Below, in pieces: positions 949 through 55,756 of a stretch of 64,000 nt of DNA. The stretch covers positions 682,001 through 746,000 of the forward strand of contig NZ_VKKZ01000019.1 of NCBI RefSeq assembly GCF_008271745.1, read 5' to 3'. The notes under the pieces were generated by a model. The model was given only the letters and a program-made list of their open reading frames with translations. It was not told where the DNA came from and did not search any database. The position numbers and the translations under genes were made by a program. Each line of letters opens with the position of its first letter. Position 1 is the stretch's first letter. This DNA is from Rufibacter glacialis (GTDB lineage: Bacteria; Bacteroidota; Bacteroidia; Cytophagales; Hymenobacteraceae).

Positions 949-1360
949 GGTTGTTTTCATAAAAAGATACTTTTTCCTTGCCTTCCCTTCTAAGATGGAG
1001 GTTACTTGTTGAGGTCTCCTCTTTTACAGGCACCCGTTCTTTATGCAAGTCCTTTAGCCGCCTTTAAAGGCTTTAGAATCCGGTGCAGTTTAGAAGAATC
1101 AAGCCGAAAACATCATTGGTTTTGTATTGGTTTTAAAAGCAGATGAGGTGGGTATTACTTTTTATGCTTTTATTTGTGCTTGTGAATCAGGTTGTTGTAT
1201 AAATATATAGGTTTTTAAATATTGAAGGTTACAGGTTTTGTGAACTAAAAGGTAGGACTGGTAGTTGTACCAACATCTATTTAAATTTTTATCACAGATT
1301 ACTTTTCTAATCCACTGATAGTATCCCCCACGGTTTTATTTCTTCCCTAAATTCTAACAA
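949..1360. other. Gene-free interval upstream of the PorP/SprF gene
   Basis: No supportable gene is seen in this interval. A weak copy of the interspersed hairpin element lies at about 949-970. The 160 bases before the next gene are AT-rich, as expected for a promoter region, but I could not identify a clear TAnnTTTG motif. Confidence 0.5.
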
Positions 1361-2266
1361 ATGAAATTAAAACAAATTACTGCTCTAGGCTTGTTTTTGC
1401 TGTTGGCTAGTGTGGCCAGCGCGCAAATCACTCCGCAGCGCATGGTGATTCCTCGCCTTTACCAACAGAACTACTTCTACCTGAATCCTGCGTTCGCGGG
1501 GGCCGAGGGCAGAAAGGAGCTAGGTATAAATGGGCACCTCAACTCTCTTGGCGGAAAATCATCTACCGCCCCTTTGTCGGTGATTGCGCATTACCAAGGG
1601 TATGTGAGCGAAACCAACCCCAATGGGATTGGGATTGTAGGAGTCTATGACCAGTTTGGACCCTATTGGTTGGGCAAGTTAGGGTTTACCTATGCGAAGC
1701 GTTTCAGGTTAGGGGAGCAAAGCAGCCTGGCGTTTGGGGCTCAGTTAGCCGCCGAGTACCTGAATGTGGACCTTTCTGAGAAAACATCCGAAGAGGGAAA
1801 GAAAATGGTGGGGCATGACAATGACCTAAGACCAGACGTAGACGCCGGGGTATGGTTGAAGATCCGTAATTTCTATGCCGGTGGCACGGTGGCCAGCATT
1901 CTGGCGCCCAACTATAACCTGATCGGTGATGCCGAGCATGAAGGCATTAGGGAGTTGCTGCTCACGGCCGGTTATAAAGTAGCCTTTGCCCCGGAATACT
2001 CCGTGACACCTTCTGTTTTCATGAGCCAGGCGCTGGAAGATGGAGAGCAGGAGTACCAGTTTGGCGCCATGGCCAACATCAAATTCCTGACGGCCGGGGT
2101 AAACTACCGCGGCCAGTTTGATAAAACCGCTCCCTGGAACGTGAGTGCCGGCGTGAACATCAAAGACAACGTGCAATTGATGACCACCTTTGACCTCACC
2201 AAGGAACATGCTGGAACCCCTAAACCAGACTCACAGGTAGAAGCGAACCTGCGCATCAGGTTCTAG
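1361..2266 (+). CDS. PorP/SprF family type IX secretion/gliding membrane protein
   Basis: This 301-residue protein has a signal peptide ending near ASAQ (residues 1-21). The family hallmark follows: QQNYFYLNPAFAGAEG at about residues 35-50, then alternating beta strands typical of the PorP/SprF outer-membrane proteins. Members work with the type IX secretion system and gliding adhesins of Bacteroidota, where they help anchor or export surface proteins. The final residues LRIRF form the aromatic C-terminal strand of an outer membrane barrel. In many genomes such genes follow a giant adhesin gene, but here it stands alone with its own terminator 20 bases downstream. The partner is therefore unknown, and the exact paralogue cannot be named. 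Confidence 0.88.
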   Translation: MKLKQITALGLFLLLASVASAQITPQRMVIPRLYQQNYFYLNPAFAGAEGRKELGINGHLNSLGGKSSTAPLSVIAHYQGYVSETNPNGIGIVGVYDQFGPYWLGKLGFTYAKRFRLGEQSSLAFGAQLAAEYLNVDLSEKTSEEGKKMVGHDNDLRPDVDAGVWLKIRNFYAGGTVASILAPNYNLIGDAEHEGIRELLLTAGYKVAFAPEYSVTPSVFMSQALEDGEQEYQFGAMANIKFLTAGVNYRGQFDKTAPWNVSAGVNIKDNVQLMTTFDLTKEHAGTPKPDSQVEANLRIRF

Positions 2267-2284
2267 TAATTCTTGCGTAACCTT

Positions 2285-2318
2285 TCAAAGGCTTGCCCCT
2301 TCGGGCAGGCCTTTTTTT
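2285..2318 (+). terminator. Intrinsic terminator after the PorP/SprF gene
   Basis: A hairpin built from AAAGGCTTGCCC and GGGCAGGCCTTT around a CTTC-type loop is followed by a T run. It starts about 20 bases after the stop codon. Confidence 0.85.
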
Positions 2319-2398
2319 GTGCCTGTGCGGAGGGTGACTTCCGCTTTAAAACCTAGGCAGGAAGGGGAGAGTAGAAGGAGAAACTGACATTCTTCTGT

Positions 2399-3562
2399 AT
2401 GGACCTATCGTATATCCTGAACGAACTAGGGGAGGACCGGGCTGCATATTTCAATGCGGTGGCGCCCCCCATCATCCAGACCAGCAACTTCGCCTGTAAA
2501 ACCGTGGCAGACATGCGCTTTATGCTGCAGCATGAAGCCGAGGTGGATTTCTATTCCCGGGGCAATAACCCTACGGTAGACATTCTGGAGAAAAAGCTGG
2601 CGGCTCTGGAAGGAACCGAGCATGCCATTGCCTTCGGGAGCGGGATGGGGGCGGTGGCCGCAGCGGTGCTTTCACAGGTGAAGGCGGGAGACCACGTGGT
2701 GTGCGTGAACAGGCCGTACATAGGAACCAATAAACTCATGCGGTACTTTCTGCCCCGCTTTGGGGTGGAGGTCACCATGGTAGACGGCACCCAGGCTGCC
2801 AACTTTGCCCAAGCCACCAAAGAGAACACCACCCTCTATTACCTGGAAAGCCCTAATTCCTTCACCTTTGAATTACAGGATATAGCCCAGATAGTGGACA
2901 TAGCCCGGGAGCGGAACATCTGCACGGTCATAGACAATAGCTTCGCCACGCCGTTGCTGCAGAACCCGGCTGCCATGGGCGTAGATCTGGTGGTGCATTC
3001 GGCCACCAAGTACATTGGGGGGCACAGTGACGTAATGGGCGGCATTGTGTGCGGGAGCCGCGAACGGATCAACCGGATCTTCGCGGCCGAATACCTCACG
3101 CTGGGGGCGGTGTTGTCACCGCATGATGCCTGGCTTTTGCTGCGGGGCCTGCGTACGTTGCCGCTCCGCATGGAACGGGTAGCGAAAACCACCCGCCAGG
3201 TAGTCGCCTTTCTGCAGCGGCGCGAAGAGGTGGCCGAAGTTTTATGGCCTTTTTTGCCAGAACACCCCCAATACCGGCTGGCCAGAAAACAGTTGCGCAA
3301 CAACACCGGGCAGTTCACGGTGCGCCTGCAAACGGAAAGCCTTGCGGAAGTGGAGCGGTTCTGTGATAGTCTGCAGCATTTTCTCATGGCAGCTTCCTGG
3401 GGAGGGCATGAATCCCTGATTTATCCGGCCGCCGCCGCTTACATGGAAGGCAAGTTCCGGTCTTCCTTGCCGTTCACGCTCATCAGGTTCTACATTGGGC
3501 TGGAAGACCCTGAGTACCTGATCAGAGACCTGGAGCAGGCTTTTGCCAGAATGAAAGAGTAA
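2399..3562 (+). CDS. Gamma-family PLP enzyme (cystathionine gamma-synthase/lyase or methionine gamma-lyase type)
   Basis: This 387-residue, full-length cytosolic enzyme belongs to the Cys/Met metabolism PLP family. The PLP lysine is K204 in HSATKYIGGHSDVMGG. The cofactor-phosphate and substrate motif YSRGNNPTV is at about residues 52-60, and the DNSFATP motif at about 179-185 carries the Asp that contacts the pyridine nitrogen. These enzymes catalyse beta/gamma elimination or replacement on sulfur amino acids, and sequence alone does not separate lyase from synthase. The start is supported by an AGGAG-like stretch upstream. It is convergent with the tail protease gene and shares a terminator with it. 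A second, distinct member of the family lies at 44477-45598. Confidence 0.88.
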   Translation: MDLSYILNELGEDRAAYFNAVAPPIIQTSNFACKTVADMRFMLQHEAEVDFYSRGNNPTVDILEKKLAALEGTEHAIAFGSGMGAVAAAVLSQVKAGDHVVCVNRPYIGTNKLMRYFLPRFGVEVTMVDGTQAANFAQATKENTTLYYLESPNSFTFELQDIAQIVDIARERNICTVIDNSFATPLLQNPAAMGVDLVVHSATKYIGGHSDVMGGIVCGSRERINRIFAAEYLTLGAVLSPHDAWLLLRGLRTLPLRMERVAKTTRQVVAFLQRREEVAEVLWPFLPEHPQYRLARKQLRNNTGQFTVRLQTESLAEVERFCDSLQHFLMAASWGGHESLIYPAAAAYMEGKFRSSLPFTLIRFYIGLEDPEYLIRDLEQAFARMKE

Positions 3563-3593
3563 CCTGTTTTCAGACCGTTTTTCAGAAAAAGGC
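3563..3593 (-). repeat. Copy of the interspersed hairpin element (minus orientation)
   Basis: Read on the minus strand it has GCC, TTTTTCTGAAAAA, GGTC and TGAAAAC in order. It begins directly after the stop codon of the upstream gene. Confidence 0.6.
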
Positions 3594-3594
3594 A

Positions 3595-3627
3595 TAAAAA
3601 AGGCCGGTACTTCAGCACCGGCCTTTT
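3595..3627. terminator. Bidirectional terminator between convergent genes
   Basis: The perfect hairpin AAAAAGGCCGGT ... ACCGGCCTTTTT serves both the PLP enzyme gene and the protease gene, with A and T runs on both sides. Confidence 0.9.
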
Positions 3628-3645: not shown

Positions 3646-5757
3646 CTATAAGCCGTCTTTCAAGATGGCCACTGCTTCCTGAATGTACAGGTCTTTCTTG
3701 GCGTTCTTGGTAAAGGCCTCAAAGCGAGCCGAAGCGGCAGTATCTCCCACCAGTTTGGAAAGGTCCTGCTTCAGGCCGGCTACCTCTAACTGAGGAATGT
3801 TCTTGCGTAGGTTTTCCAGTTTCTTAGACTCTTCCTGGGTTCTGCGCTCCTCTGCCAGATAGGTGCTTAGCTTGAGGGAACGGGTGGTGTTCTCTGTTCT
3901 TTCTTTCAAGCGCAGGGCGCTTTGGTTGATAAGGGAGAACGTTGGGCTAGTAGATACCCGGTTTTTAGAGGCAGCTTTCAGTTTCTCTACAGAGAAATTA
4001 GGGCTATTCCAGGTATTGAACTTAGCGGACTGGATCTCATCAAATGGCAGCGCGTATTCCTGCTCTTTCTCTCCGTATTTGAGGTACGTATAGGTGTCTG
4101 GTAACAGGATATCTGGCGTCACGCCCCGCAACTGCACCGTTTTACCACTGATGCGGTAGTATTTCTGGGTAGTCAGTTTCAGGTGGCCTAAGGGTTTCAC
4201 AGCGTCAAAAGAGGCAGGTAATACCTGGTCCAGGTCGAAGAACTGTTGCACGGTTCCTTTTCCATAGGTAGAGCTTCCTACAATCACCCCGCGCTTGTAA
4301 TCCTGGATAGCGGCGGCCATGATCTCTGAGGCAGACGCGCTGTTCTCATTCACCAAAACCACCAGCGGTCCGCCAAATTGCACCTGCGGATCACGGTCTT
4401 CCAGTACCGCGGCCGGGCCATTGGCAGATTTTACCTGTACCACCGGACCAGATTTGATGAAGAGGCCTACCATGTCAACCACATCCTGCAGGGATCCCCC
4501 GCCGTTGTTTCTTAGGTCAAGGATGATGCCCTGGGCGTTTTCCTGCTTCAGTTTCTGGATCTCAGCCGCTACGTCTTTGCCACTGTTGCGGCCACCGGCG
4601 TTCTTGAAATCTGCGTAGAAGGCAGGCAAATGGATGTAGCCCAGCGTTTTAGGGCCGCCTTTGATCAAAAGGGATTTGGCGTAGCCTTCTTCCCGTACCA
4701 CCACATCCCGGATGATGGAAATCACCTTCATGGTGCCGTCTACTTTCTTCACTGACAAGCGCACTTCAGTACCCTTTTTCCCTCTGATCAAGGAAACGGC
4801 TTTGTCTATGCGCATGCCCTGGATGTCAACGGGAGCCTGGTTTCCCTGGGCTACTTTCAGGATTACATCACCGGGTTTCAATTCTCCTTGCAGGTAAGAG
4901 GGGCTACCGGGGGTGATTTCAGAGACTTTGATCAAGCCGTCTTTCTCCTGCAGCAAAGCTCCAATGCCTTCTAAACGGCCAGAGAACTCATAGTCAAAGT
5001 CCTCTTTCTCTTTAGGGGCATAGTACTCTGTATGTGGATCATAGACGTTGGCGAACGAGTTCAGGTAAGAGGAACGGTAGTCTTCGTTCTCCAGCTGGCT
5101 CATGCGTTTGAACAGGTCGTCATAGTTTTCCCGAAGTTTTTTACGGGCATCGGCCTCAATCTCTGTCATGCTCTTCTTGGGTTCCTTAGAGCCCGCCGAG
5201 TCGGATTTCTGCTGGGTATCCAGGGCATCGGCCACGCGGGCCAGGGCCTGGTACTTAAGGTACTTGCGCCATTCTTCCTTCAAGGCGGCCGGTGAGGTGG
5301 CAAATTTCAGTTTCTCAGGCTTTACCTCAATGGTTTCCTCTTTGTCAAATTCAAAGGGCTTGTCCAGGATCTCTTTGTAGAAGCTTTCGGCCTCTTTGAG
5401 TCGCTTGTGGAACAGGCTCATGGAAAGGTCAAAGAACTTGAAGGAACCGTTCTTGAACTCGTCGTCCAGTTGGGTTTCGTATTTGGCCAATTGGTCCACG
5501 TCTGACTGAAGCAGGAACTTCTTGTTGTAGTCCAGGCGCTCCAGGTAGAGATTAAAGGCCTTTTTTGAGAAATTATCGTCTAAACGCTCAGGGGAATAGT
5601 GCGCTGAACTCAGGCCCTGCATGAGCACCTTGGTAAGTACTTCGTTTTTCTGGTCCCGTAGTGCGCCATCTGTCTCCAGGAATTTATAGGAGGCAATGCC
5701 AAACACCACAGAGGCGGCTGTACCGTAAGTGACCAGCTTTGTCTTTAAAGAAAACAT
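3646..5757 (-). CDS. prc: Carboxy-terminal processing protease (S41 family, Tsp/Prc type)
   Basis: This 703-residue periplasmic protease cleaves proteins from hydrophobic C-termini and takes part in envelope quality control. It starts with a hydrophobic signal/anchor (about 7-25), followed by the Tsp N-terminal helical region (to about 240). A PDZ domain occupies about 260-350 (EGIGALLQEKDGLIKV, SYLQGELKPGDVI). The S41 core runs from about 370 to 540. The catalytic Ser/Lys dyad is visible: S475 in ENSASASEI and K500 in SSTYGKGTVQQ, 25 residues apart as in E. coli Tsp. The remaining C-terminal part matches the Tsp-type tail domain. Length is normal for the Prc subgroup and exceeds that of the shorter CtpA group. 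Confidence 0.95.
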   Translation of the reverse strand: MFSLKTKLVTYGTAASVVFGIASYKFLETDGALRDQKNEVLTKVLMQGLSSAHYSPERLDDNFSKKAFNLYLERLDYNKKFLLQSDVDQLAKYETQLDDEFKNGSFKFFDLSMSLFHKRLKEAESFYKEILDKPFEFDKEETIEVKPEKLKFATSPAALKEEWRKYLKYQALARVADALDTQQKSDSAGSKEPKKSMTEIEADARKKLRENYDDLFKRMSQLENEDYRSSYLNSFANVYDPHTEYYAPKEKEDFDYEFSGRLEGIGALLQEKDGLIKVSEITPGSPSYLQGELKPGDVILKVAQGNQAPVDIQGMRIDKAVSLIRGKKGTEVRLSVKKVDGTMKVISIIRDVVVREEGYAKSLLIKGGPKTLGYIHLPAFYADFKNAGGRNSGKDVAAEIQKLKQENAQGIILDLRNNGGGSLQDVVDMVGLFIKSGPVVQVKSANGPAAVLEDRDPQVQFGGPLVVLVNENSASASEIMAAAIQDYKRGVIVGSSTYGKGTVQQFFDLDQVLPASFDAVKPLGHLKLTTQKYYRISGKTVQLRGVTPDILLPDTYTYLKYGEKEQEYALPFDEIQSAKFNTWNSPNFSVEKLKAASKNRVSTSPTFSLINQSALRLKERTENTTRSLKLSTYLAEERRTQEESKKLENLRKNIPQLEVAGLKQDLSKLVGDTAASARFEAFTKNAKKDLYIQEAVAILKDGL

Positions 5758-6938: not shown

Positions 6939-6994
6939 GAGAGAAGGGTTTGGCCGAACCCGGATACTTATTGCTGAGTACCTTCTGCCTTTTT

Positions 6995-7024
6995 GGGCTG
7001 GTTTCTCAAAAAGGCCGCCTAAAC
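6995..7024 (+). repeat. Copy of the interspersed hairpin element
   Basis: It contains GGGCTG, GTTTCTCAAAAA, GGCC and GCCTAAAC in the family order, between two convergent genes. Confidence 0.65.
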
Positions 7025-7795: not shown

Positions 7796-7822
7796 AAACG
7801 CCAGTGCAAAGCACTGGCGTTT
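7796..7822 (-). terminator. Terminator of the sigma/anti-sigma-protease operon
   Basis: A perfect hairpin AAACGCCAGTG / CACTGGCGTTT lies 46 bases past the stop codon of the minus-strand protease gene and ends in a T-rich stretch on that strand. Confidence 0.75.
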
Positions 7823-7867
7823 AGGACGTGGTATAATGAAATTAAGTGAAAAACAAGGCCTTGAGTA

Positions 7868-10062: not shown

Positions 10063-10121
10063 AAAGCCCCGCCTCTTTCGGGCCTGTTTCATAAAAACAG
10101 GCCCGAAAGAGGCGGGGCTTT
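10063..10121. terminator. Very long perfect hairpin (27-bp stem) between convergent genes
   Basis: Arms 10063-10089 and 10095-10121 are perfectly complementary over 27 bp around a 5-base loop. Its tip (about 10079-10105) has the layout of the interspersed element: GGCCTG, TTTCATAAAAA, GGCCC and GAAAG. It likely terminates the proline dehydrogenase gene on the minus strand. Confidence 0.8.
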
Positions 10122-11340: not shown

Positions 11341-11422
11341 ACGTAAAAACGGTTGTTAGTTGTTTATGAGGCGATTTGCTGAAATCATTTCTTAAACGCT
11401 GGGCCTTTACCAGACACCTGCC

Positions 11423-12557: not shown

Positions 12558-12571
12558 GCGAAACCATATCA

Positions 12572-12601
12572 GGGGTCTTTTTCAGGAATCTGCCTGAAAA
12601 C
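12572..12601 (+). repeat. Copy of the interspersed hairpin element
   Basis: It contains GGGGTC, TTTTTCAGGAA, TGCC and TGAAAAC in the family order, 15 bases after the GTGA microsatellite. Confidence 0.6.
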
Positions 12602-12720: not shown

Positions 12721-12763
12721 AACTGCCCCAGACATTCCCTTCTTTAGAGCATCATCTTGTTTT

Positions 12764-12794
12764 GGGGCTGTTTTCAACAATAGAGCCGCAAGAC
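12764..12794 (+). repeat. Copy of the interspersed hairpin element, just upstream of aroB
   Basis: It has GGGGCTG, TTTTCAACAA, GAGCC and GCAAGAC in the family order, ending about 20 bases before the aroB start codon. Confidence 0.6.
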
Positions 12795-12814: not shown

Positions 12815-13855
12815 TTGACCGAAGAAATATTCATAGGCCAGGAAGCCTTGGGGCAGTGGCAGCAACTGCTGCAGAACAGGGCTTTCAAGAAAACGGTGGT
12901 GCTGGTAGACGAGAACACGCACCGGCACTGCTATGCCCTGCTTAAACCGTATCTGCCCCCAGACCACCACGTGGTGCAGATCAAAAGCGGGGAGGAGAAC
13001 AAGAACCTGGCTACCTGCGAACACGTGTGGCGCGAACTCACCGAGCAAGGGCTGGACCGCTGGAGCCTGCTGGTGAACCTGGGTGGCGGCGTGCTCACCG
13101 ATTTAGGCGGTTTCTGCGCCAGCCTGTACAAACGGGGCATCCGGTTCGTGAATGTGCCTACCACCTTGTTATCTCAGGTAGACGCCAGCGTGGGCGGTAA
13201 GACCGGCATCGACTTCATGGGCTTTAAAAACCACATAGGGGTGTTCCAGGAACCATTGGCTGTGTTGGTGAACCCTGCCTTTCTGCAGACCCTGGACATG
13301 CGCCAGATGAAATCCGGCTACGCCGAGATCATCAAGCACTGGCTTATCATGGATGCTGAGAAATTCTTCGAGCAACGCTACATTGGCCTGTTCACCGAGG
13401 ATTGGACCGACCTGATCCGGCATTCCATTGCCATTAAATCCCGCGTGGTCACTGCTGACCCACTGGAAAACGGGCTGCGCAAGATCCTCAACTTTGGGCA
13501 CACCATCGGGCACGCCGTGGAAAGCTTCTACCTGGAGAAACCGGGGCAAACCTTGCTGCACGGCGAGGCCATTGCCGTGGGCATGCTCTGCGAGGCCTGG
13601 CTTTCGGTGCAGAAAGGCTTGCTGCCGCAGGCGGAATTGGACCAGATAGAAACGTTTATGCTGTCTATTTATGAAAAGGTGCCCGTTCCGGAGGCCGATG
13701 TCCAGGCCATCAGCCATCTGTGCCTGCACGACAAAAAGAACGACGGCGCCACCATCAACTGCACCCTGCTGCAGAAAATCGGCGAAGCCGTGTATGACCA
13801 ACCTATCACTTTACCCGAGGTACAGAGTGCCTTGCGTTATTACCAATTACTATGA
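12815..13855 (+). CDS. aroB: 3-dehydroquinate synthase
   Basis: The 346-residue NAD- and metal-dependent enzyme converts DAHP to 3-dehydroquinate, the second step of the shikimate pathway. The NAD-binding glycine motif NLGGGVLTDLGGF (about residues 88-100), the substrate motif VPTTLLSQVDASVGGKTGID and the zinc-binding LNFGHTIGHAVES are all present. The frame has an upstream stop at 12800 and no ATG near the expected N-terminus, so translation probably starts with TTG at 12815 (MTEEIFIGQEAL). It overlaps aroA by four bases (ATGA), which indicates translational coupling. Confidence 0.95.
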   Translation: MTEEIFIGQEALGQWQQLLQNRAFKKTVVLVDENTHRHCYALLKPYLPPDHHVVQIKSGEENKNLATCEHVWRELTEQGLDRWSLLVNLGGGVLTDLGGFCASLYKRGIRFVNVPTTLLSQVDASVGGKTGIDFMGFKNHIGVFQEPLAVLVNPAFLQTLDMRQMKSGYAEIIKHWLIMDAEKFFEQRYIGLFTEDWTDLIRHSIAIKSRVVTADPLENGLRKILNFGHTIGHAVESFYLEKPGQTLLHGEAIAVGMLCEAWLSVQKGLLPQAELDQIETFMLSIYEKVPVPEADVQAISHLCLHDKKNDGATINCTLLQKIGEAVYDQPITLPEVQSALRYYQLL

Positions 13856-15093
13856 TCTTAGCTGCTGCCGTGCGCGTATCGCACCCCACGGGCGTGTTGC
13901 GCGGACGCGTAACCTTGCCTGCCTCTAAAAGCGAAGCCAACCGGGCGCTCATCATCAGGGCATTATCCGGGAAAGATTTCCCTATCCATAACCTTTCAGA
14001 CGCCAATGACACCCAACTGCTCAACCGCCTGCTTTCTGCCCCCGTGGGGGAAGAAGTGAGTGCCGAGGATGCCGGGACTGTCATGCGTTTCCTGACTGCC
14101 TATTACGCCGCCACCGGCCAGGAACTTACCTTAACCGGCACCGCCCGCATGTGCCAGCGGCCCATTGGGGTGCTGGTAGACGCGCTTCGGCAGTTAGGGG
14201 CGCAGATAGATTACCTGGGGCAGGAGGGCTTCCCGCCGTTGCGGATGAAGGGCTTTACGCCCAGCGGCTCCAACCAATTGACCGTGCGTTCAGACATCAG
14301 CAGCCAGTATATCTCTGCCCTACTCATGATAGGGCCTTTGTTGCCGCAGGGACTGGAACTCACCTTGGAAGGCAAGATCAGCTCTGAGCCGTACATCCGG
14401 ATGACCTTGGCCCAGATGGCCTATTTTGGAGTGGAGGCTACGTTTGAAGGTCAGAAAATCACGGTGGACAAACAAGAATACCAAGCCAGGGAATACACGG
14501 TAGAGTCTGACTGGTCGGCGGCCAGTTACTGGTTCAGCATCACGGCCCTGGCCAAAGAGGCCGACCTGTTTTTGCCTGCTTTGCGGCATGATTCGTTGCA
14601 GGGCGATAGTGTGCTGCCCACGCTTATGGCCCCGTTTGGCGTGGAGACAGAGTTTACACCAGAGGGTGTTCGGCTCACGAAGCAGCCGGTTCAAGAGCCT
14701 CTGGAGCGGATCAATTTCTATGCCTGCCCAGACCTGGCCCAAACGGTAGCCGCTTTGGCCGCCGGTTTGGAGGTAGAGGTGGAAATGACCGGCTTGGAGA
14801 GCCTTCGCATCAAAGAAACCGACCGTATTGCCGCCTTGCAGTTTGAGCTGGTCAAATTTGGGGCAGAGCTCCGCGAGATCGCGCCAGACGTTTTCAAGGT
14901 ATTTCTGAGAAAACAGCCTGAAAACCTGGCTACCGTGCATACCTATGAAGACCACCGCATGGCCATGGCCTTCGCGCCGCTGGCCCTGAAGCAGCCGCTG
15001 GTGGTGGAAGAACCCAAGGTGGTGCGCAAGTCTTACCCGCGGTATTGGGAAGAACTGGAGAAGGCTGGTTTTGAAATAGAGAAAATGGGTTAA
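13852..15093 (+). CDS. aroA: 5-enolpyruvylshikimate-3-phosphate synthase
   Basis: The 413-residue enzyme joins PEP to shikimate 3-phosphate, the sixth step of the shikimate pathway. The family signatures PASKSEANRALI (K26 binds substrate), EDAGTVMRFLTAYYA, the central SDISSQYISALLM and LRIKETDRIAAL near the C-terminus are intact. It lacks the usual LPGSKS spelling at the N-terminus and has LPASKSEANR instead, a common Bacteroidota variant. Its start overlaps the aroB stop, so both are made from one message. The cluster provides steps 1, 2 and 6 of chorismate synthesis plus chorismate mutase; aroC, aroE and aroK are elsewhere. Confidence 0.95.
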   Translation: MILAAAVRVSHPTGVLRGRVTLPASKSEANRALIIRALSGKDFPIHNLSDANDTQLLNRLLSAPVGEEVSAEDAGTVMRFLTAYYAATGQELTLTGTARMCQRPIGVLVDALRQLGAQIDYLGQEGFPPLRMKGFTPSGSNQLTVRSDISSQYISALLMIGPLLPQGLELTLEGKISSEPYIRMTLAQMAYFGVEATFEGQKITVDKQEYQAREYTVESDWSAASYWFSITALAKEADLFLPALRHDSLQGDSVLPTLMAPFGVETEFTPEGVRLTKQPVQEPLERINFYACPDLAQTVAALAAGLEVEVEMTGLESLRIKETDRIAALQFELVKFGAELREIAPDVFKVFLRKQPENLATVHTYEDHRMAMAFAPLALKQPLVVEEPKVVRKSYPRYWEELEKAGFEIEKMG

Positions 15094-15220
15094 ATCAATT
15101 CTTCGGGCAGCAAAAAATTATTTCCTGATATATACGAGATCGGTTTGAATGGATGTAGCCTTCTGTTCGTCTCGCCGGTTTTCAGTTCTTTGTTGGAAAG
15201 GAGCCAGAAAACCAAACTTT

Positions 15221-18530: not shown

Positions 18531-18893
18531 TTTCCCTTAGACGCCTAGCTCTTTCTCTTGTGGCCATCTATCTCACTCTTTTTCCTCCTTCTCTTTGTCA
18601 TCTTTCACTCTTTGTAATCAATCCTTACTTTGTCCTTCATCTCCCTCTTTGTCATCCTGGAAGGATCTTGTAGGCAACCTAGACAGGCGGTGGCTGAATG
18701 GAAAAGTCGAATGATCTATTAGTGATTCCTTAAGGCTTCATGTTTCACTTAGGCGCATCTGCCTTGCCTCTTCATAATTGGAAAGAGAGCACTCTCCCCA
18801 TGTTTACCTCATGTTCCAAACGCACCTTTGAGATCAGGGACGCTCACGTTCCGGGGCTATTTTTAATCAAGTAGGCCTGAAGCGCGATTTACT
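18531..18893. other. Gene-free interval, pyrimidine-rich
   Basis: No gene is supported. The first 130 bases are pyrimidine-rich on the + strand and carry CTCTTTGTCATC twice (18591-18602 and 18645-18656). The end carries a hairpin and a weak interspersed element. Confidence 0.5.
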
Positions 18894-19454: not shown

Positions 19455-19628
19455 GGATCAACAAACAAACTAGATTCTGGAAGTGAAGATAGCCATAAAT
19501 GTAATTTCCAGGGAGGCTTCTGGTAAGAATAACCCTAGAAAGCCAGGACTGGCCAAGTCTTGTATACTTGCTCTTACATAGCACCTCCGTTTTGCGCCTC
19601 TTTTCAGAAGAACAGAGCGTAAACACAA

Positions 19629-19661: not shown

Positions 19662-19677
19662 GTAGTACCTGCGTTCA

Positions 19678-19709
19678 GCGCCTATTTTCTGCAAAACAGC
19701 CCTGAAATA
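19678..19709 (+). repeat. Copy of the interspersed hairpin element
   Basis: It contains GCGCCTA, TTTTCTGCAAAA, AGCC and TGAAATAG in the family order, adjacent to the stop of the M42 gene. Confidence 0.65.
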
Positions 19710-28680: not shown

Positions 28681-28696
28681 GCAACCCCTTTTTTCA

Positions 28697-35167: not shown

Positions 35168-35231
35168 AAAAGCGGCATCAAACAAAAGCCCAGCAATGAC
35201 CTGCTGGGCTTTTGTTTGATGCCGCTTTTTT
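35168..35231 (+). terminator. Very long perfect terminator hairpin (28-bp stem)
   Basis: Arms 35168-35195 and 35202-35229 are perfectly complementary over 28 bases around a 6-base loop and end in a T run. It closes the susCD operon. Confidence 0.92.
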
Positions 35232-35265
35232 ATAAATCGGGTCAGAATCATAATCCCCCTTATCC

Positions 35266-36331: not shown

Positions 36332-36372
36332 GCGCAAAAGGCTGGCAGGAAAAATCCACCAGCCTTTTGCGC
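36332..36372 (+). terminator. Terminator of the M28 peptidase gene
   Basis: Perfect 14-bp arms GCGCAAAAGGCTGG and CCAGCCTTTTGCGC surround a 13-base loop. Confidence 0.75.
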
Positions 36373-36398
36373 TGGTTTTTCAAAAAGTGGCCTGAAAT
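36369..36398 (+). repeat. Copy of the interspersed hairpin element
   Basis: It shows GCGCTG, GTTTTTCAAAAA, GGCC and TGAAAT in the family order and touches the terminator of the M28 gene. Confidence 0.65.
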
Positions 36399-37090: not shown

Positions 37091-37097
37091 ATTAACT

Positions 37098-37128
37098 GAG
37101 AGATTGAATGATTGAGAGATTGAATGAA
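37098..37128 (+). repeat. Two tandem copies of a 16-base unit
   Basis: TGAGAGATTGAATGA is repeated directly, eight bases upstream of the start codon of the minus-strand YrdC-type gene. Confidence 0.8.
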
Positions 37129-37239
37129 TAGGAAAGAAGAGGTTATGCTTTTGGTTGTAGGGTGGAAAACCTGCGTTCTTTCCGGAAATTTCTCTGTGCC
37201 ATGCCTACGCATACGCTTGAATTAAAATTTGCGTTTTCA

Positions 37240-37268
37240 AGGCTGATTTCCAAAAGTAGGCCCAAAGC
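37240..37268 (+). repeat. Copy of the interspersed hairpin element
   Basis: It shows AGGCTG, ATTTCCAAAA, TAGGCC and CAAAGC in the family order in the divergent leader between the YrdC-type gene and mltG. Confidence 0.65.
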
Positions 37269-37357
37269 AGCATTTGTCTAAATCAATCTTCGAAATCCCT
37301 GATCCAAAGCACCAACATTCCCACATTCAGGCAATCTCTCATTCACTCATTAATTTG

Positions 37358-37365
37358 TACCTTTG
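37358..37365 (+). promoter_or_regulatory. Candidate -7 promoter element close to the mltG start
   Basis: TACCTTTG is an exact TAnnTTTG match ending six bases before the chosen ATG at 37372, so the transcript would begin at or near the start codon. Confidence 0.35.
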
Positions 37366-37371
37366 TTGTCT

Positions 37372-38460
37372 ATGTCAGAACAAAACATACCTGTAACGCG
37401 CGGTTCCAGAAAGCCGCGGAAACCCCAGAAGACGAGCAAATGGACCTATGTCCTGGTGGTGCTGATGTTCCTCTTCGTGTGCTTCTCGTATTATGCCTAC
37501 CAGATCGTGTATACCCCCAACGTGGAGAACAAAGGGGAGCCGGTGTACGTGCTCATCCCCAAAGGGGCCACCTATGAGCAGGCCATGGATTCCATTGATG
37601 CCAAGAAAGTGATCATTGACCGCCTGTCTTTGCGGTTCATGGCCAAACTTATGGACTACCCTGAGCTGGTGAAACCCGGCCGTTATGAACTGAAAGATGG
37701 CCTGACCAACTACAAGCTCATTGCCAAGCTGCGGTCCGGGGACCAGGACCCCGTGAAGCTGACGTACACCAACGTGCGCCTCAAAAAAGACCTGGCCCAG
37801 AAACTGAGCACGTTCATTGATGCGTCGCCCGCTGAGATTGACTCTCTGCTCAACAGCCCCTCGTTTACCAAGAAGCTGGGCTTTGACACCACCACCATCC
37901 TCACCATGTTCATCCCCAATACCTATGAACTGTACTGGACCACCTCGGCGCCAGACATGATGGAGCGCATGAAAAAGGAATACGACAACTTCTGGACGAA
38001 GGAACGCAAAGCCAAAGCAGCGGACCTGGGGCTTACCCAGAAGGAGGTCTCCATTCTGGCCTCCATTGTGCAGGCAGAACAGTCGGTGCACGCAGATGAG
38101 CGCCCCCGTATTGCCGGGGTGTACCTGAACCGCCTCAAGCGCAACATGGCCCTGCAGGCTGACCCTACGGTGGTCTTCGCCACGGGCGATTTCACCATCC
38201 GGCGCGTGCTCAACGTGCACCTGAAAACGCCTTCGCCCTACAATACTTACTTGAACAAAGGCTTGCCGCCCGGGCCTATCAACCTGCCGTCCAGCACGTC
38301 TATCAACGCGGTGCTGAACCCAGAGGAGCATGAGTACCTGTATTTCTGCGCGAAAGAGGATTTCTCGGGTTACCACGCCTTTGCCGTGACGGAAGCCGAG
38401 CACAGAAGAAACGCCCAGCGGTTCCACGCAGCCATGAACCAGCGCAACATCATGCGATAG
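37372..38460 (+). CDS. mltG: Endolytic murein transglycosylase MltG
   Basis: The 362-residue inner membrane enzyme cuts nascent glycan strands and so sets their length. An N-terminal cytoplasmic basic stretch is followed by one membrane helix (about residues 23-43), a LysM-like segment (about 55-105, VYVLIPKGATYEQAMDSI) and the YceG catalytic domain. The catalytic Glu lies in SILASIVQAEQSV, followed by PRIAGVYLNRL and the substrate motif SPYNTYLNKGLPPGPI. ATG 37372 is preferred over the TTG codon three codons upstream. Length is typical. Confidence 0.95.
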   Translation: MSEQNIPVTRGSRKPRKPQKTSKWTYVLVVLMFLFVCFSYYAYQIVYTPNVENKGEPVYVLIPKGATYEQAMDSIDAKKVIIDRLSLRFMAKLMDYPELVKPGRYELKDGLTNYKLIAKLRSGDQDPVKLTYTNVRLKKDLAQKLSTFIDASPAEIDSLLNSPSFTKKLGFDTTTILTMFIPNTYELYWTTSAPDMMERMKKEYDNFWTKERKAKAADLGLTQKEVSILASIVQAEQSVHADERPRIAGVYLNRLKRNMALQADPTVVFATGDFTIRRVLNVHLKTPSPYNTYLNKGLPPGPINLPSSTSINAVLNPEEHEYLYFCAKEDFSGYHAFAVTEAEHRRNAQRFHAAMNQRNIMR

Positions 38461-38472
38461 ATAGCTGGTTGA

Positions 38473-38503
38473 AGGCTTGTTTTCTGAAAAGTAGCCTTGA
38501 AAC
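38473..38503 (+). repeat. Copy of the interspersed hairpin element (one of the best matches)
   Basis: AGGCTTG, TTTTCTGAAAA, TAGCC and TTGAAAC follow the family consensus closely, 12 bases after the mltG stop. Confidence 0.75.
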
Positions 38504-38801: not shown

Positions 38802-38831
38802 GTTTTCAGGCATTTTTCAGAAAATCAGGCC
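38802..38831 (-). repeat. Copy of the interspersed hairpin element (minus orientation)
   Basis: On the minus strand it reads GGCCTG, ATTTTCTGAAAAA, TGCC and TGAAAAC, close to consensus, upstream of the thioesterase gene. Confidence 0.7.
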
Positions 38832-38865
38832 TGAACGGGACAGATGATTTTAAAAGAAGAGAACA

Positions 38866-40278: not shown

Positions 40279-40306
40279 GGGGCGTTTTTGTTATAGGCTT
40301 ACTTTG
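40279..40306 (+). repeat. Weaker copy of the interspersed hairpin element
   Basis: GGGGCG, TTTTTGTTAT, AGGC and TTACTTTGG partially match the family, 49 bases after the YihY stop. Confidence 0.4.
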
Positions 40307-40336
40307 GAAAAATTGCGTAAAAAATCGTCTTAGCAC

Positions 40337-40505: not shown

Positions 40506-41017
40506 TTTTGTTCGGACATATATCGGACAAAGCGATGGTACTCCACCAGTGGTAGCGGCAGGTAGTTTTTTGGGCTGTTTTCTGAAAGGTAAGTACCCAT
40601 GGGAACATGCCGTTAACAAGGACAGCAAAAGAATGACCACCTCTCACCTAGAACACTTGCTGATACTGCGTCCGCTTCTATAACCGCCAGCTCACCACCC
40701 ACCACAATGAAGGGGGCTTGGGAGAGGTTTGCAAACCTTTTGGCTAAGTATTTCCTGCCAGATAAACTCTAATTGGTTGGCTTACCCATCCGTCGCCCAA
40801 TACGCTAGTAAAATTAAGTGGTGTATGCGTTATTCCAGGGGCCTGGTAGAAAAGGAGCACGTAGGTAAGGTAGAGCAGAGGGATAGTTCATTCCAAACAA
40901 AACACCTGCCTTGAGTTTACTCCCCATCCTCTTACCCATTCCTCGGCAACATAAAATAGCGCATTCCTTAGTAGGCCTGGGTGTGGTGCCGATCAGACTC
41001 CAGGAATTGAATCTGGT
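40506..41017. other. Gene-free interval after the tRNA
   Basis: I see no supportable gene in these 510 bases. Short open frames have no recognisable sequence. One interspersed element copy is present. Confidence 0.5.
40572..40598 (+). repeat. Copy of the interspersed hairpin element
   Basis: GGGCTG, TTTTCTGAAA and GTACCC follow the family order; the tail is altered. Confidence 0.6.
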
Positions 41018-45598: not shown

Positions 45599-45940
45599 GG
45601 GGCAGGGTTGGCTTATCTTCCATTACCCACCAGAGCCACTGTTGGTTGAAAATGATTTTGTCGTTCAGTCCCGCAGCCCTTGGCAGGTCAGGCATAGGAG
45701 GCAGGTGATGCAAACCTTATCTGATATTTTTCTGCTGGCGAAGCGCCTTGCGCATCGTGTCTTCTGTACTATTGGGAGAATTGGGGACATGCTTTTTACC
45801 ACTATGCCCGTTTTAACAGATGAGGAGCCTTCTTTAAAGTCCTTTCTGCTTTGGCCTAAGAAGCGTTACCTGAAACACCACCTGGTCATTTAAAATTGTA
45901 AAAGTGACAGATAAGTGGCTATTTTTAACTTTTGATTTTT
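45599..45940. other. Gene-free interval before the beta-galactosidase gene
   Basis: About 360 bases with no supportable gene. The start of the GH2 gene overlaps a weak copy of the interspersed element. Confidence 0.5.
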
Positions 45941-45969
45941 GGCTCATTTTTTAAAAAGAGATGATAAAC
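45941..45969 (+). repeat. Weaker copy of the interspersed element overlapping the GH2 start
   Basis: GGCTC, ATTTTTTAAAAA and ATAAAC follow the family order and include the ATG at 45961. Confidence 0.35.
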
Positions 45970-48387
45970 AGGTGGTTAATGGCCTTGTTGCTCCTGGTGT
46001 CGCCCTTCTCCTTTGCGCAGGTGCGGGTGGTGACCGAATTAGAGCACGGCTGGACGTTCAAAAAGGGCCCGCACGCGCAGGCGTACCAGGTGGGGTTCAA
46101 TGACAAGAACTGGCAGAAAGTCACGGTGCCACATGATTGGGCCATCTACGGGCCATTTGACAAAGAGATAGACAAGCAGGTGGTGGCCATTGAACAGAAC
46201 GGCGAGAAAGTGCCCTCTGAGAAAACCGGCCGTACCGGGGCCTTGCCCTACATCGGCGAAGCCTGGTACCGCAATGAGTTTACCTTGCCTCATTACAAAA
46301 AGGGGCAGAAAGTACTGATCGTGTTTGAGGGCGCCATGAGTGAGCCCAAGGTATACCTGAACGGGCAGAAGGTAGGGGAGTGGGGGTACGGGTACAGCTA
46401 CTTCTACTTTGACGTCACCGATCAGATCCAGGAAGGGAAGAAAAACACGCTAGCCGTGCAATTGACCAACCAGGGGCAGTCCTCGCGCTGGTACCCGGGG
46501 GCGGGCTTGTACCGCAAGGTGCAGGTAGTGGTGAAGAACCCTGAGAGCATTGACCAGTGGGGCACGTTTGTCACCACGCCGTTTATCTCCGCAGAACTGG
46601 CTAAGGTGAACATTAAAACCAAGGCTTCTGGCAGCAACGTGCGCCTGTTCACCCAGGTGCTGGATGCCAAAGGCAACACCGTGGCCACGGATAGTACGGG
46701 CAAGCGCTTCGGGAAAGAGTTCGAGCAGAATCTGGCCGTGCCCAACCCCCAACTCTGGAGCCCTGAGACCCCGTACCTGTATACCGCCGTTTCCAGGTTG
46801 TATGTAGGCAAAGAACTCAAAGACGAAGTCTCTACCCGCTTCGGGATACGGGAGATCAGTTATAAATCCACTGTGGGGTTCAGCCTGAACGGGAAGGTGC
46901 GCAAGTTCAAAGGAGTCTGCCTGCACCATGACCTGGGGCCGTTGGGAGCCGCCGTGAACAAGGCCGCCCTGCGCCGGCAACTGCAGATTTTGAAAGACAT
47001 GGGCTGTGATGCCATCCGGAGCTCGCACAACATGCCGTCCCTGGAGCAGTTAGAGCTAGCCGACGAGATGGGGTTCATGTTCCTGGCCGAGAGCTTTGAC
47101 GAGTGGGCCAAACCAAAGGTGAAGAACGGCTACAACCTGTTCTTTGAAGAGTACGCCGAAAAAGACATTGTGAGCCTGGTGCACGCTACCCGCAACCACC
47201 CGTCTATTGTTATGTGGAGCTCGGGGAACGAGGTGCCAGACCAGTGGGGGGCCGAAGGGGTGAAGCGCGCCAAATGGCTGCAGGATATCTTCCACCGCGA
47301 GGATCCTACCCGTCCGGTCACCGTGGGCATGGACCAGGTGAAAGCCACCATGGCCTCCGGTTTCGGGGCTCTTTTAGACATTCCGGGCCTGAACTACCGC
47401 GTGCACCTGTATGAAGAGGCGTTCAAAGCCTTCCCGCAAGGGATGATTCTGGGCTCAGAGACGGCATCTACCGTGAGTTCGCGCGGCATCTACAAATTCC
47501 CGGTAGAGAAAGCGATTGAGAAACAATACCCAGACCTGCAAAGCTCTTCCTATGACCTGGAATACTGCAGCTGGTCTAACCTGCCGGATGATGACTTCGT
47601 GCTACAGGACGACAAGCCCTGGGTGATTGGTGAGTTTGTGTGGACGGGCTTTGATTATCTGGGCGAACCCACACCGTATGACAACAAGTGGCCTTCTCGC
47701 AGCTCATACTTCGGGATCAATGACCTGGCGGGCTTGCCCAAGGATCGTTTTTACCTGTACCGCAGCCGCTGGAACAAGGACGCCGAGACGCTGCACCTTC
47801 TGCCGCATTGGAACTGGGAAGGCCGTGAAGGTCAGACCACTCCGGTGTTCGTGTACACCAACTATGACAGCGCTGAGTTGTTCGTGAACGGAAAAAGCCA
47901 GGGCATCCAAAAGAAACACGCCGCCACGCCCCAGAACCGGTACCGCCTCATGTGGATGGACGTGAAATACGAGCCGGGCACGGTGAAGGTAGTCGCCTTC
48001 GGGAAAGACGGCAATCCCGTGGCGGAAAGGGAAGTAAAGACCGCCGGCAAGCCGCATAGAATCGTGCTGCAACCAGACCGGACGCAGATCACCGCCGACG
48101 GGAAGGACATTTCCTTTGTGACCGTATCCGTGGTAGACAAAGACGGGAATCTTTGCCCCACGGCCACAAACCAACTCAGCTTCCAGGTGAAGGGGAAAGG
48201 CAGGTTCCGCGCCGCCTCTAACGGAGATCCTACCTCGCTGGAAATGTTCCATTTGCCCACCATGAAGCTGTTCAGCGGAAAACTGGTGGTGCTGGTGCAA
48301 GCCACAGACCAGGCCGGTGACATGGAGTTGTCGGTGAAAGGGAAAGGCCTGCAGACTGGACAGGTAAACCTGAAAGCTGTACGGTAA
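45961..48387 (+). CDS. GH2 family beta-galactosidase-like glycoside hydrolase
   Basis: The 808-residue secreted enzyme has a signal peptide (to about FAQ, residue 20). The GH2 sugar-binding domain (about 25-200) is followed by the immunoglobulin-like domain (200-310). The TIM barrel (about 310-590) has acid/base E424 in MWSSGNEVPDQ and nucleophile E500 in ILGSETASTVS. The WVIGEFVWTGFDYLGEPTPYD region (about 559-579, given by landmarks) matches the DUF4982-type GH2 group. A C-terminal DUF4982 and a beta-sandwich domain (about 700-808) follow. The likely activity is release of galactose, but other beta-linked sugars are possible in this group. It is monocistronic, 1.3 kb upstream of the sialic acid regulator gene, so it may help remove galactose beneath sialic acid. 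Confidence 0.92.
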   Translation: MINRWLMALLLLVSPFSFAQVRVVTELEHGWTFKKGPHAQAYQVGFNDKNWQKVTVPHDWAIYGPFDKEIDKQVVAIEQNGEKVPSEKTGRTGALPYIGEAWYRNEFTLPHYKKGQKVLIVFEGAMSEPKVYLNGQKVGEWGYGYSYFYFDVTDQIQEGKKNTLAVQLTNQGQSSRWYPGAGLYRKVQVVVKNPESIDQWGTFVTTPFISAELAKVNIKTKASGSNVRLFTQVLDAKGNTVATDSTGKRFGKEFEQNLAVPNPQLWSPETPYLYTAVSRLYVGKELKDEVSTRFGIREISYKSTVGFSLNGKVRKFKGVCLHHDLGPLGAAVNKAALRRQLQILKDMGCDAIRSSHNMPSLEQLELADEMGFMFLAESFDEWAKPKVKNGYNLFFEEYAEKDIVSLVHATRNHPSIVMWSSGNEVPDQWGAEGVKRAKWLQDIFHREDPTRPVTVGMDQVKATMASGFGALLDIPGLNYRVHLYEEAFKAFPQGMILGSETASTVSSRGIYKFPVEKAIEKQYPDLQSSSYDLEYCSWSNLPDDDFVLQDDKPWVIGEFVWTGFDYLGEPTPYDNKWPSRSSYFGINDLAGLPKDRFYLYRSRWNKDAETLHLLPHWNWEGREGQTTPVFVYTNYDSAELFVNGKSQGIQKKHAATPQNRYRLMWMDVKYEPGTVKVVAFGKDGNPVAEREVKTAGKPHRIVLQPDRTQITADGKDISFVTVSVVDKDGNLCPTATNQLSFQVKGKGRFRAASNGDPTSLEMFHLPTMKLFSGKLVVLVQATDQAGDMELSVKGKGLQTGQVNLKAVR

Positions 48388-48392
48388 GTTTA

Positions 48393-48420
48393 GGGCGTGT
48401 TTTCTAGAAAGATGTTAAAA
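48393..48420 (+). repeat. Copy of the interspersed hairpin element
   Basis: GGGCGTG, TTTTCTAGAAA and GTTAAAA follow the family order, 6 bases after the GH2 stop. Confidence 0.55.
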
Positions 48421-48499
48421 TCAGAGTGTACTTGGTGATAAGTTGATCAGGTTATCCCACATAAGAGGGTAGCGAGCCAATAACTTTCATTCTTCTTAG

Positions 48500-48545
48500 A
48501 AGCCCCAGAAAAACCTTTCTAGGTAGAAAGGCTTTTCTGGGGCTT
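48500..48545 (+). terminator. Strong hairpin terminator
   Basis: AAGCCCCAGAAAA with TTTTCTGGGGCTT, plus an inner CCTTTCT/AGAAAGG stem, and a T run form a stable terminator about 110 bases after the GH2 gene. Confidence 0.8.
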
Positions 48546-48568
48546 TTTTTAAAAAAGGCACCTAAAAC
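48539..48568 (+). repeat. Copy of the interspersed hairpin element joined to the terminator
   Basis: GGGGCT, TTTTTTAAAAAA, GGCACC and TAAAAC follow the family order, and its 5' arm is shared with the terminator. Confidence 0.5.
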
Positions 48569-49080: not shown

Positions 49081-49734
49081 GTGGAGCTCCTTTTAAGGAA
49101 AATTTCCCTTTCTTCACCAGTGCTTCCTTAACTCAACAGAGCCTCCAGGTTTTGTAATGGAAGCAGGGAAGAAGCCTTTCTTGTCAAAAAGGAAACCTAA
49201 AGTAGTGCAGGAGGGGTTTCCTGGTTGTTTTCTGAAAAGAACCAGGAAAGCGGGGAGGTTTGCTTGCTCAGCCCTTGAGCCCTTGATCATATTTCGTTTT
49301 CCGGTCTGAACTTGAAGAATCAAAGACCATAACACGTTTCAAAGGCATTCTCTACCAAAGCCTTACTGAAAAGAACCGTTCACCGGCCCGGAGGAAAGAT
49401 GTCTTTTGATGTAAAAAAGACCAGGAAATCTGCCTTTCTTAAGGCAGGGCATGATTTTACATGCTTTTCTTAAGAACAGGCCCTAAATACATGGAGATGT
49501 TCAACTCCCCGCGCCTAAGATCAAGCTTTGTAAGACATTAGCCTTTCCTACGCCAGAGGAAGGCAGCAAGTGCCGCCAATTTTTCAGAGAGGGTTACGGT
49601 ACTATATAAAGGAGTACCCAGGGATCCGTTGGCTTTCCGGCAGATGCCTGAGGCGGGTGGCCTTGTTGGTTAGTTCCTCAAGGAAATCGTTGAAATATTC
49701 AGCAGTGCTCTTCCTATCCCAGCCGAACCGTTCC
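49081..49734. other. Gene-free interval before the regulator gene
   Basis: No supportable gene in about 650 bases. One good interspersed element copy and a small palindrome GCATG/CATGC (49449-49464) are present. Confidence 0.5.
49221..49250 (+). repeat. Copy of the interspersed hairpin element
   Basis: CTGGTTG, TTTTCTGAAAA, ACCAG and GAAAG follow the family order; the outer arms CTGGTT and AACCAG pair perfectly. Confidence 0.7.
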
Positions 49735-55466: not shown

Positions 55467-55470
55467 ATAA

Positions 55471-55528
55471 GTGGTGTGATATGAAAGTAAGGGACTATGA
55501 AAAGACCTGCGCTTTCATATCACACCAC
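55471..55528 (+). terminator. Hairpin terminator after susD of the sialic acid locus
   Basis: Perfect 17-base arms at 55471-55487 and 55512-55528 surround a 24-base loop, followed by a pyrimidine-rich stretch. Confidence 0.75.
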
Positions 55529-55694
55529 CTTCTTCTTGGTTTAGCGGAATGGGCAGAAGGTAGGGTGTAGACGGCAGAGTTGGTAGCAGTGCTTGCCTAC
55601 CTGATTAAAGCTCAAGACCTAAAGGTAAATAGAGTGAAAGTAAGTCCACCTAGTACCAGCTCTAGCTTTTTTATTTCCACTTGGCAACAATGGC

Positions 55695-55721
55695 TTGCGA
55701 CAGCCATTATAAGTACTTTTG
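55695..55721 (+). promoter_or_regulatory. Candidate promoter of the nanL operon
   Basis: TTG (55695-55697) and TACTTTTG (55714-55721), 16 bases apart, match the -33/-7 pair, about 130 bases before the lyase ATG. Confidence 0.5.
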
Positions 55722-55726
55722 TTTTT

Positions 55727-55756
55727 GGGCTAGTTTTAGAGAAATAGCCCAAAAAC
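55727..55756 (+). repeat. Copy of the interspersed hairpin element in the nanL leader
   Basis: GGGCTA, GTTTTAGAGAAA, TAGCCC and AAAAAC follow the family order. Being directly downstream of the promoter, it would be in the 5' part of the transcript. Confidence 0.65.

Follow-up and report, generated by a model that had tools for sequence, protein, structure and literature searches.

The closest described counterparts of the element considered here are the repetitive extragenic palindromic (REP) sequences of enterobacteria and pseudomonads, with the related bacterial interspersed mosaic elements (BIMEs) and REP doublets (REPINs), and their REP-associated tyrosine transposases (RAYTs). The element is an imperfect dyad that recurs throughout a stretch of 64,000 nucleotides of Rufibacter glacialis (hereafter the window), which spans positions 682001-746000 of contig NZ_VKKZ01000019.1 (C10) in a 5.32-Mb genome of 25 contigs (labelled G000). 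Like REP, BIME and REPIN sequences it is short, palindromic, interspersed, intergenic and biased to the 3' side of genes, numbers hundreds to thousands of copies per genome and falls into lineage-specific classes; unlike them it has no GTAG or GTGG head, flanks transposase genes only at background frequency, is built of independent, rigidly spaced half-sites and occupies positions shared between species (the comparison draws on excerpts of PMC3686654, PMC2817692, PMC3733652, PMC12306157 and PMC6379681). Palindromes lacking a dedicated transposase, the CGTC-tagged REPs, have been reported from Bacteroidetes too; in the excerpted account these have stems of 8-9 bp and a CGTC tag, whereas the Rufibacter consensus is a 36-bp dyad with T/A tracts and no such tag (PMC3733652).

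A literature search recovered no report on palindromic or intergenic repeats of Rufibacter in open-licence PMC papers. A second likeness is to the sites of nucleoid-associated proteins and global regulators (Fis, IHF, MatP/matS, CcpA and CodY), which are likewise degenerate double-stranded dyads with fixed and free letters, whose positions are kept while the letters drift; compared with these the Rufibacter element is far more numerous than matS, longer than most dimer sites, and limited to one genus in its family. Roadblock terminators such as that of yeast Reb1 are alike in that a protein bound at gene ends could stop RNA polymerase. LacI reportedly acts as a roadblock in E. coli, and we know of no bacterial system that does so genome-wide. 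Based on the comparisons below, we propose with moderate confidence that the element is a double-stranded site for a putative symmetric DNA-binding protein near the edges of transcription units.

The repeat unit and its distribution

Alignment of 143 copies defined the repeat unit as a 36-bp imperfect dyad, GTTT-NNRGSCTG-TTTT-N(3-4)-AAAA-NRGSCYNN-AAAC, that is, GTTT, two free bases, RGSCTG, TTTT, three to four free bases, AAAA, one unspecified base, RGSCY, two free bases and AAAC. This is wider than the hairpin of arm, core, arm and tail described in the first-pass annotation: the conserved outer GTTT and AAAC belong to the unit, the supposedly separate tail TGAAAC is merely its right edge, and the earlier layout covers its middle and right side. 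Since the dyad is nearly symmetric, the plus- and minus-strand assignments given to individual copies mean little, and orientation relative to genes is ill defined for the same reason (54 same and 58 opposite in tandem gaps). A symmetric pattern was accordingly adopted for the pairing tests, a seeming left/right asymmetry having stemmed from the use of an asymmetric one. Half-site spacing is rigid: among 283 pairs with a gap of 2-5, the gap is 4 in 244 and 3 in 32. No pairs occur at gaps of 6-13, and 13 further pairs have gaps of 14-39; we considered a helical-turn variant with a gap of 14-15 (7 cases) and rejected it, because on inspection these are mostly overlapping or shifted registers. 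Rigidly spaced half-sites, their independent reading at the inner positions and position-specific constraint, the three features looked for in a protein-bound dyad, were all found.

Copies were scored with a weight matrix based on letter counts from positions 1-400000 of the same contig alone, outside the window; it is not wholly independent of the window, as window copies were among the aligned sequences from which its seed pattern was derived. With this matrix 49 places in the window exceed 10 bits, compared with 2 in the reversed window. All 23 places listed in the first-pass annotation match it (the lowest at 11.7 bits, 22 above 16 bits), so that the listed copies are real; the estimate of about twenty copies, all between genes, was too narrow, as 26 places lie beyond that list and several of them fall within called genes (e.g. 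3239, 5550, 14890, 32582 and 47360), the gene calls here being those of a home-made caller of open reading frames (ORFs) and not an annotation. Over 464 kb, a profile started from 20 window copies scored above 8 bits at 216 places, and at none in the reversed sequence. Outside called genes lie 160 of the 182 places above 10 bits, non-genic DNA making up 91,514 of the 464,000 bases (20%), which bears out the description of the element as intergenic, with variable letters in a constant layout. Genome-wide, a 17-base core is matched 151 times at up to 2 mismatches and its reversed form once, and the 261 places above 10 bits per 400 kb (9 reversed) extrapolate to about 3,300 in the genome. In the species compared, the density is roughly one site per 1-3 kb. 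High copy number, intergenic location and palindromy, by which REP and REPIN sequences are recognised, are thus also properties of this element.

Searches with the 36-base pattern at up to 3 mismatches returned 161-1857 matches per strand in all 16 Rufibacter genomes (322/318 in the R. glacialis genome). Elsewhere in the family the same pattern gave 0-2 matches across 188 genomes, of which 11 had any at all (reversed control 0-1), and in 38 genomes from other families of the order it gave 0-1. A looser, tract-only pattern gave 37-1714 matches per strand within the genus; in 44 genomes from elsewhere in the family both it and its reversed form gave 0-5. The minimum of 37 belongs to G013, as opposed to 313-1714 in the other 15 Rufibacter genomes, because the half-site of that species differs. 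Within its family the element is confined to Rufibacter. Separately, viral contigs include 6 stretches with an exact inner match, 3 of which have a copy at up to 5 mismatches.

Conserved positions and changing half-sites

All five species examined show an excess of copies in two zones, 0-30 bp past stop codons and 80-120 bp ahead of start codons, and a deficit within about 30 bp (R. glacialis) or about 60 bp (the four other species) of starts; the placement near stops noted at first stands, whereas that just before starts does not. By the profile, gaps with the element number 28/47 among convergent, 81/167 among tandem and 12/49 among divergent ones, and in G005 26 of 29 convergent gaps carry it. 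With the symmetric pattern, the divergent gaps with a copy number 13/18 in G004, 11/25 in G007, 9/32 in G005 and 5/19 in G000; as these gaps are not poor in G004, the gap bias varies between species. Within called genes lie 64 of 501 copies found at up to 6 mismatches, 51 of them deep inside, with phases 20/16/15; at this threshold the reversed control of the symmetric pattern gives 5 matches in 1.26 Mb in total. Each of the eight deep in-gene copies of G004 is matched in G015 by one equally far from the stop codon, and the in-gene copy at 32582 of the window has elements in G004 and G015 that likewise lie 398 bases from the stop.

Positional conservation was followed most closely between G004 and G015, whose aligned blocks are 86% identical, using 64 G004 copies from 200 kb (up to 5 mismatches in G004, up to 7-8 in G015). 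Of these, 57 could be mapped by both flanks (7 could not), and for 55 of the 57 the orthologous G015 gap holds a copy as well, indicating that few copies were lost through the choice of pattern; for the remaining 2, neither G015 gap reads as a clean empty site in this two-species comparison. In the alignments of these 55 pairs, positions 3-4, 14-15, 22-23 and 33-35 diverge by 0.02-0.07 and the tract edges (2, 13, 16, 21 and 24) by 0.11-0.24, both of these tract values being lowered by the presence of the tracts in the selection pattern; the other dyad positions diverge by 0.16-0.42 and the flanks by 0.24-0.51 (mean about 0.39).

A wider comparison of eight loci around positions 26-41 kb of the window recovered a copy, at up to 7 mismatches, in 15/16, 12/15, 14/16, 15/16, 6/15, 2/16, 12/16 and 15/16 species, the reversed control giving 0 at seven loci and 1 at the 2/16 locus. 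Hence at six of the eight a copy is present in 12-15 of 15-16 species with no match in the reversed control. Two of these loci, after gene D and before gene E, are represented by one common copy in G005, G006 and G013. In the 250 bp before gene A, 12 of 16 species have a match at up to 7 mismatches, one of them elsewhere in that stretch, and in 11 of the 12 species with a match at up to 9 mismatches it lies at the same distance within 4 bp, despite widely differing arms. Positions that are kept while the letters drift within a frame of four T/A tracts are the mark of a selected binding site, and many of these positions would have been in place already before the genus diversified.

The half-sites themselves vary by species. 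Symmetrised consensi prepared for 16 species from 27.5-400 kb each (67.5 kb in G013) include GTTTAGGGGCTSTTTTT in G005, GTTTTTGGCCTGTTTTC in G007 and GTTTTYGGSCTCATTTC in G013. The last of these is shifted, with the consensus CTCATTT, and has A where most other species read T. The G013 version is in place at the orthologous sites after D and before E (one copy) and after gene C, while the site between C and D is mixed. In a five-gene protein tree G013 groups with G008 (96/97), whose half-site is of the common form. A different fate is seen in G009, in which the copies are decayed though its sister species within the same clade have normal ones: its matrix is diffuse and there are 54 forward against 18 reversed matches. 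G009 can be regarded as a natural case of loss, which could point to a lost protein.

Copies along the window

Copies of the window are given here with their matrix scores and without assigned strand. Those traced across species lie around 26-41 kb. Upstream of gene A (start at 26508) is a degenerate copy at 26355-26390 (19.5 bits). The copy at 27722-27757 (29.4 bits; 12/15 species) overlaps the ATG of an ORF at 27745, and such overlap with a start codon is visible in other species too. Past the stop at 28680 is the copy at 28690-28725 (28.7 bits; 6/15 species). The next four surround genes C (36461-37090, minus strand) and D: after C at 36363-36398 (22.4 bits; 15/16 species within 140 bp), in the divergent C-D gap at 37233-37268 (25.4 bits; 14/16 species at up to 7 mismatches, the R. 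glacialis copy itself having 8), 7 bp past the stop of D at 38468-38503 (29.0 bits; 15/16 species), and upstream of gene E at 38802-38837 (32.4 bits; 15/16 species). The copy first listed at 40279, matched at 40290-40325 (19.8 bits; 2/16 species and 1 reversed), is doubtful and the least secure of the listed places; at 40566-40601 (11.7 bits) only the left half is present.

Two copies adjoin or form part of terminator-like structures: that at 3566-3601 (30.7 bits) stands beside a minus-strand terminator-like hairpin with a T-run, and that at 10074-10109 (28.5 bits), an extended palindrome, is the tip of a long terminator-like hairpin. The window's best copy is at 55721-55756 (38.9 bits), and the other listed ones lie at 6989-7024 (32.1 bits), 12566-12601 (27.1), 12759-12794 (28.9), 19673-19708 (32.6), 29303-29338 (16.4), 48387-48422 (17.7), 48533-48568 (27.3) and 49216-49251 (23.5), together with three that had been listed as weak, at 942-977 (16.7), 18848-18883 (20.9) and 45934-45969 (28.8). 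Previously unlisted copies within called genes are those at 3239-3274 (22.4 bits, gene 2399-3562), 5550-5585 (22.4, gene 3646-5757), 14890-14925 (30.6, gene 13852-15093), 32582-32617 (29.2, gene 29929-32997) and 47360-47395 (20.1, gene 45979-48387). Further unlisted copies occur at 7819-7854 (21.2 bits), 11362-11397 (22.1), 15177-15212 (22.9), 19589-19624 (34.0), 22635-22670 (20.7), 34541-34576 (20.2), 35214-35249 (24.3), 49453-49488 (20.1) and 61292-61327 (21.1).

The surroundings of gene D contain other repeats. The gap upstream of D (about 37091-37460) has a second repeat type, ATTGAATGATTGAGAGATTGAATGAAT, with an inverted partner, CATTCACTCATTAAT, beside the likely D promoter, and this pair is present in at least several of the species inspected. 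In the gap after D, where Rufibacter has the element, several Pontibacter loci (L122-L138) have AT-rich inverted repeats, ATTGTTAATTGTTG ... CAATTAACAATCAAC, and Hymenobacter loci L139, L141, L142, L146, L149 and L152 have GTCATGCTGAGC...GAAGCATCT-like inverted repeats past the stop of D. The Hymenobacter repeat is a different interspersed palindrome in the same place. We rejected both outgroup repeats as instances of the element, as they are other sequences occupying the same gap.

A putative border-marking protein and the alternatives

Rigid spacing, inner half-sites that vary independently, position-specific constraint, indifference to strand and frame, and a half-site that is shifted in one species are together what is expected of a site for a symmetric DNA-binding protein. 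The independence of the halves is seen at the inner positions 8-16, which in five species are no better paired than swapped halves (z -0.6, 0.0, 1.1, -0.6 and -0.1). The putative protein, a dimer or a pair of dimers, would read two inverted 16-bp half-sites, GTTT-NNRGSCTG-TTTT, around a centre of 3-4 bp, with the T/A tracts probably serving as the main fixed contacts and the GSC/CTG letters as secondary ones, and protein and sites would coevolve. Given that copies are rare in genes and concentrate just past stops and 80-120 bp ahead of starts, the protein may act at transcription-unit borders, in chromosome architecture, as a boundary or as a roadblock to RNA polymerase.

Several observations weigh against this proposal. 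Both the cognate protein and its function are things that we infer. Simple dimer binding does not predict pairing of the outer parts, yet positions 5-7 pair beyond chance in four of the five species (z 6.3, 6.1, 5.1, 0.5 and 3.6), the unique flanks in all five (z 3.9, 2.3, 4.9, 8.8 and 4.0) and tract positions 2-4 in two of five (z 4.1 and 3.4). Moreover, extended palindromes make up 9-39% of copies depending on the species (9% in R. glacialis, 39% in G005), whereas the swapped-half control gives 0.6-9.8%; the outer pairing arises at least partly from this subset. The tract constraint is in part ascertained, as the pattern used for selection contains the tracts, some G004/G015 flanks are so unlike that base-for-base orthology is doubtful, and coding constraint may have conserved the in-gene copies. 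The G013 shift is not isolated, as the base concerned is already T or A in G003, G004 and G015, and the site may be dispensable, given that G009 keeps only weak copies. Finally, G060, which belongs to another family of the same order, has 19 tract-only matches against 3 reversed. Its repeat, GTTTTTAGCCTATTTTGTCAAATAACTGGCAAAACC (loci L245-L252; 38 + 29 matches), occurs as near-identical copies whose left part resembles the Rufibacter half-site, and in the 8 of the 67 matches (both strands counted) that were inspected the flanks are common beyond the 36 bases. Given these shared flanks it appears to be a longer ordinary repeat, a look-alike that may or may not be related to the Rufibacter element.

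Foremost among the alternatives, and in our view unlikely, is that the copies are relics of REP or REPIN sequences, or of miniature inverted-repeat transposable elements, which were moved by a tyrosine transposase of the Y1, RAYT type and have no present role, persisting by descent and occasional re-amplification. Such relics would be palindromic, interspersed, mostly intergenic and limited to one genus with species-specific consensi, all of which holds here, and according to an excerpted study the REP classes of pseudomonads likewise follow host phylogeny and switch sequence (PMC3686654). Searches with PF01797 in the R. glacialis genome and 16 genomes of the genus recovered Y1 transposase genes from 15 of the 16 Rufibacter genomes. 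One of these genes (L053) is preceded by a 34-bit copy at a distance of about 115 bp, and 103.5 kb around 32 transposase loci hold 65 copies, or 0.63/kb, compared with 0.36-0.42/kb in six other stretches. A link to such a transposase, which the first-pass annotation had proposed to look for, did not emerge when the 32 of 45 transposase matches examined were set against 394 control genes with gaps of at least 100 bp on both sides: copies lie on both sides within 400 bp at 6/32 transposase loci against 118/394 control genes, and on at least one side at 23/32 against 288/394. We therefore rejected RAYT-mobilised REPs as a candidate, since flanking of the transposase genes is not above that of control genes. 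In addition, the transposase search found nothing at E<=1e-3 in G007, a genome with about 1000 element matches, and none of the 16 species consensi has a GTAG or GTGG head within 4 bp of the dyad. Neither the 55 of 57 shared positions nor tract cores that diverge by 2-7% beside flanks at about 39% are expected of neutral relics. What survives of the early comparison with REP and BIME sequences is therefore the layout; the head, enrichment at transposase genes and species-specific positions do not. As for the transposases themselves, the short Y1 (RAYT-type) genes are found at L051-L054 and L055-L082, four of them in the R. glacialis genome, and one gene each in G008, G001 and G013 is a far better match to the family (E<1e-24).

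Instead of a dedicated protein, an enzyme of general function, such as DNA gyrase or a condensin, might dock or cleave at the element, whose location downstream of genes would match the places where positive supercoils accumulate, as has been proposed for BIME-2; we consider this improbable. The preference for convergent over divergent gaps (28/47 against 12/49, and 26/29 of the convergent gaps in G005) is what such a role would predict, and the BIME-2 repeats of E. coli bind gyrase according to an excerpt of PMC6379681. Divergent gaps (13/18 in G004) and genes carry the element too, however, and such enzymes are general whereas the element is limited to one genus of its family. Gyrase, moreover, recognises a long wrapping motif, unlike a rigid 36-bp dyad.

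The first-pass annotation had also entertained an element acting at the RNA level. Tests on the sense strand lend that reading no support: in tandem gaps the count of G·U pairs (297) does not clearly exceed that of A·C (267), and among the outer and flanking pairs G·U and A·C fall short of expectation to a similar degree (254 observed and 311 expected for G·U, 243 and 285 for A·C). The compensatory changes anticipated in the arms are absent from the inner arms and present at positions 5-7 and in the flanks; a covarying stem that tolerates G·U on the transcribed strand, as in a structured RNA, was thus not found, though outer pairs do covary. Most copies also lack the GC hairpin followed by a U-tract of an intrinsic terminator: 136 of 475 have a T-run no more than about 30 bp away in either direction (39/79 extended palindromes, 29/90 of a middle class and 68/306 plain copies). 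This T-run comparison was used in place of a folding-based terminator scan, which called 488-611 terminator-like sites on each strand per 200 kb and was thus too permissive to separate gaps with and without the element. The 79 extended palindromes (about 17%) fall in tandem or convergent gaps in 75 cases and in divergent gaps in 4, with none in genes, whereas among the 306 plain copies 48 are in divergent gaps and 50 in genes. We read the extended copies as ones that were taken up into intrinsic terminators and may double as such, a reading that is incomplete because half of them have no T-run. That the element as a whole is an RNA hairpin, either a terminator or a stabiliser of mRNA 3' ends, is quite improbable: the enrichment 0-30 bp past stops, the extended palindromes beside T-runs, the outer pairing, a modest excess of T-runs over A-runs near 3'-end copies (61 against 40 of 239) and T raised 5-15 nt past the copy all point that way, but G·U is not in excess, the inner stem does not covary, the centre is fixed at 3-4 bases, the consensus, read on either strand, places the T tract before the GC arm and the A tract after it, opposite to the order in a terminator, divergent gaps and genes (in all phases) contain copies too, and an Rfam scan of the window returned a single match above gathering score, to a tRNA, and none for the element.

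Returning to the site for a symmetric DNA-binding protein, its origin might lie in a short mobile palindrome that perhaps spread and was later put to use. More tentatively, we suggest that a burst at the founding of the genus was domesticated into one to a few thousand sites read by a dedicated, putative border-marking protein that coevolves with them, such that the two halves in G013 would have moved together, in place, at hundreds of sites. Interspersed palindromes of bacteria are usually deemed mobile debris with turnover of positions, whereas here the positions are kept in the species compared. Should the protein prove to be architectural or a boundary factor, Rufibacter would supply an equivalent, among bacteria, of the boundary factors defined by sequence, and its sixteen species with differing half-sites would show the joint change of a protein and hundreds of its sites.

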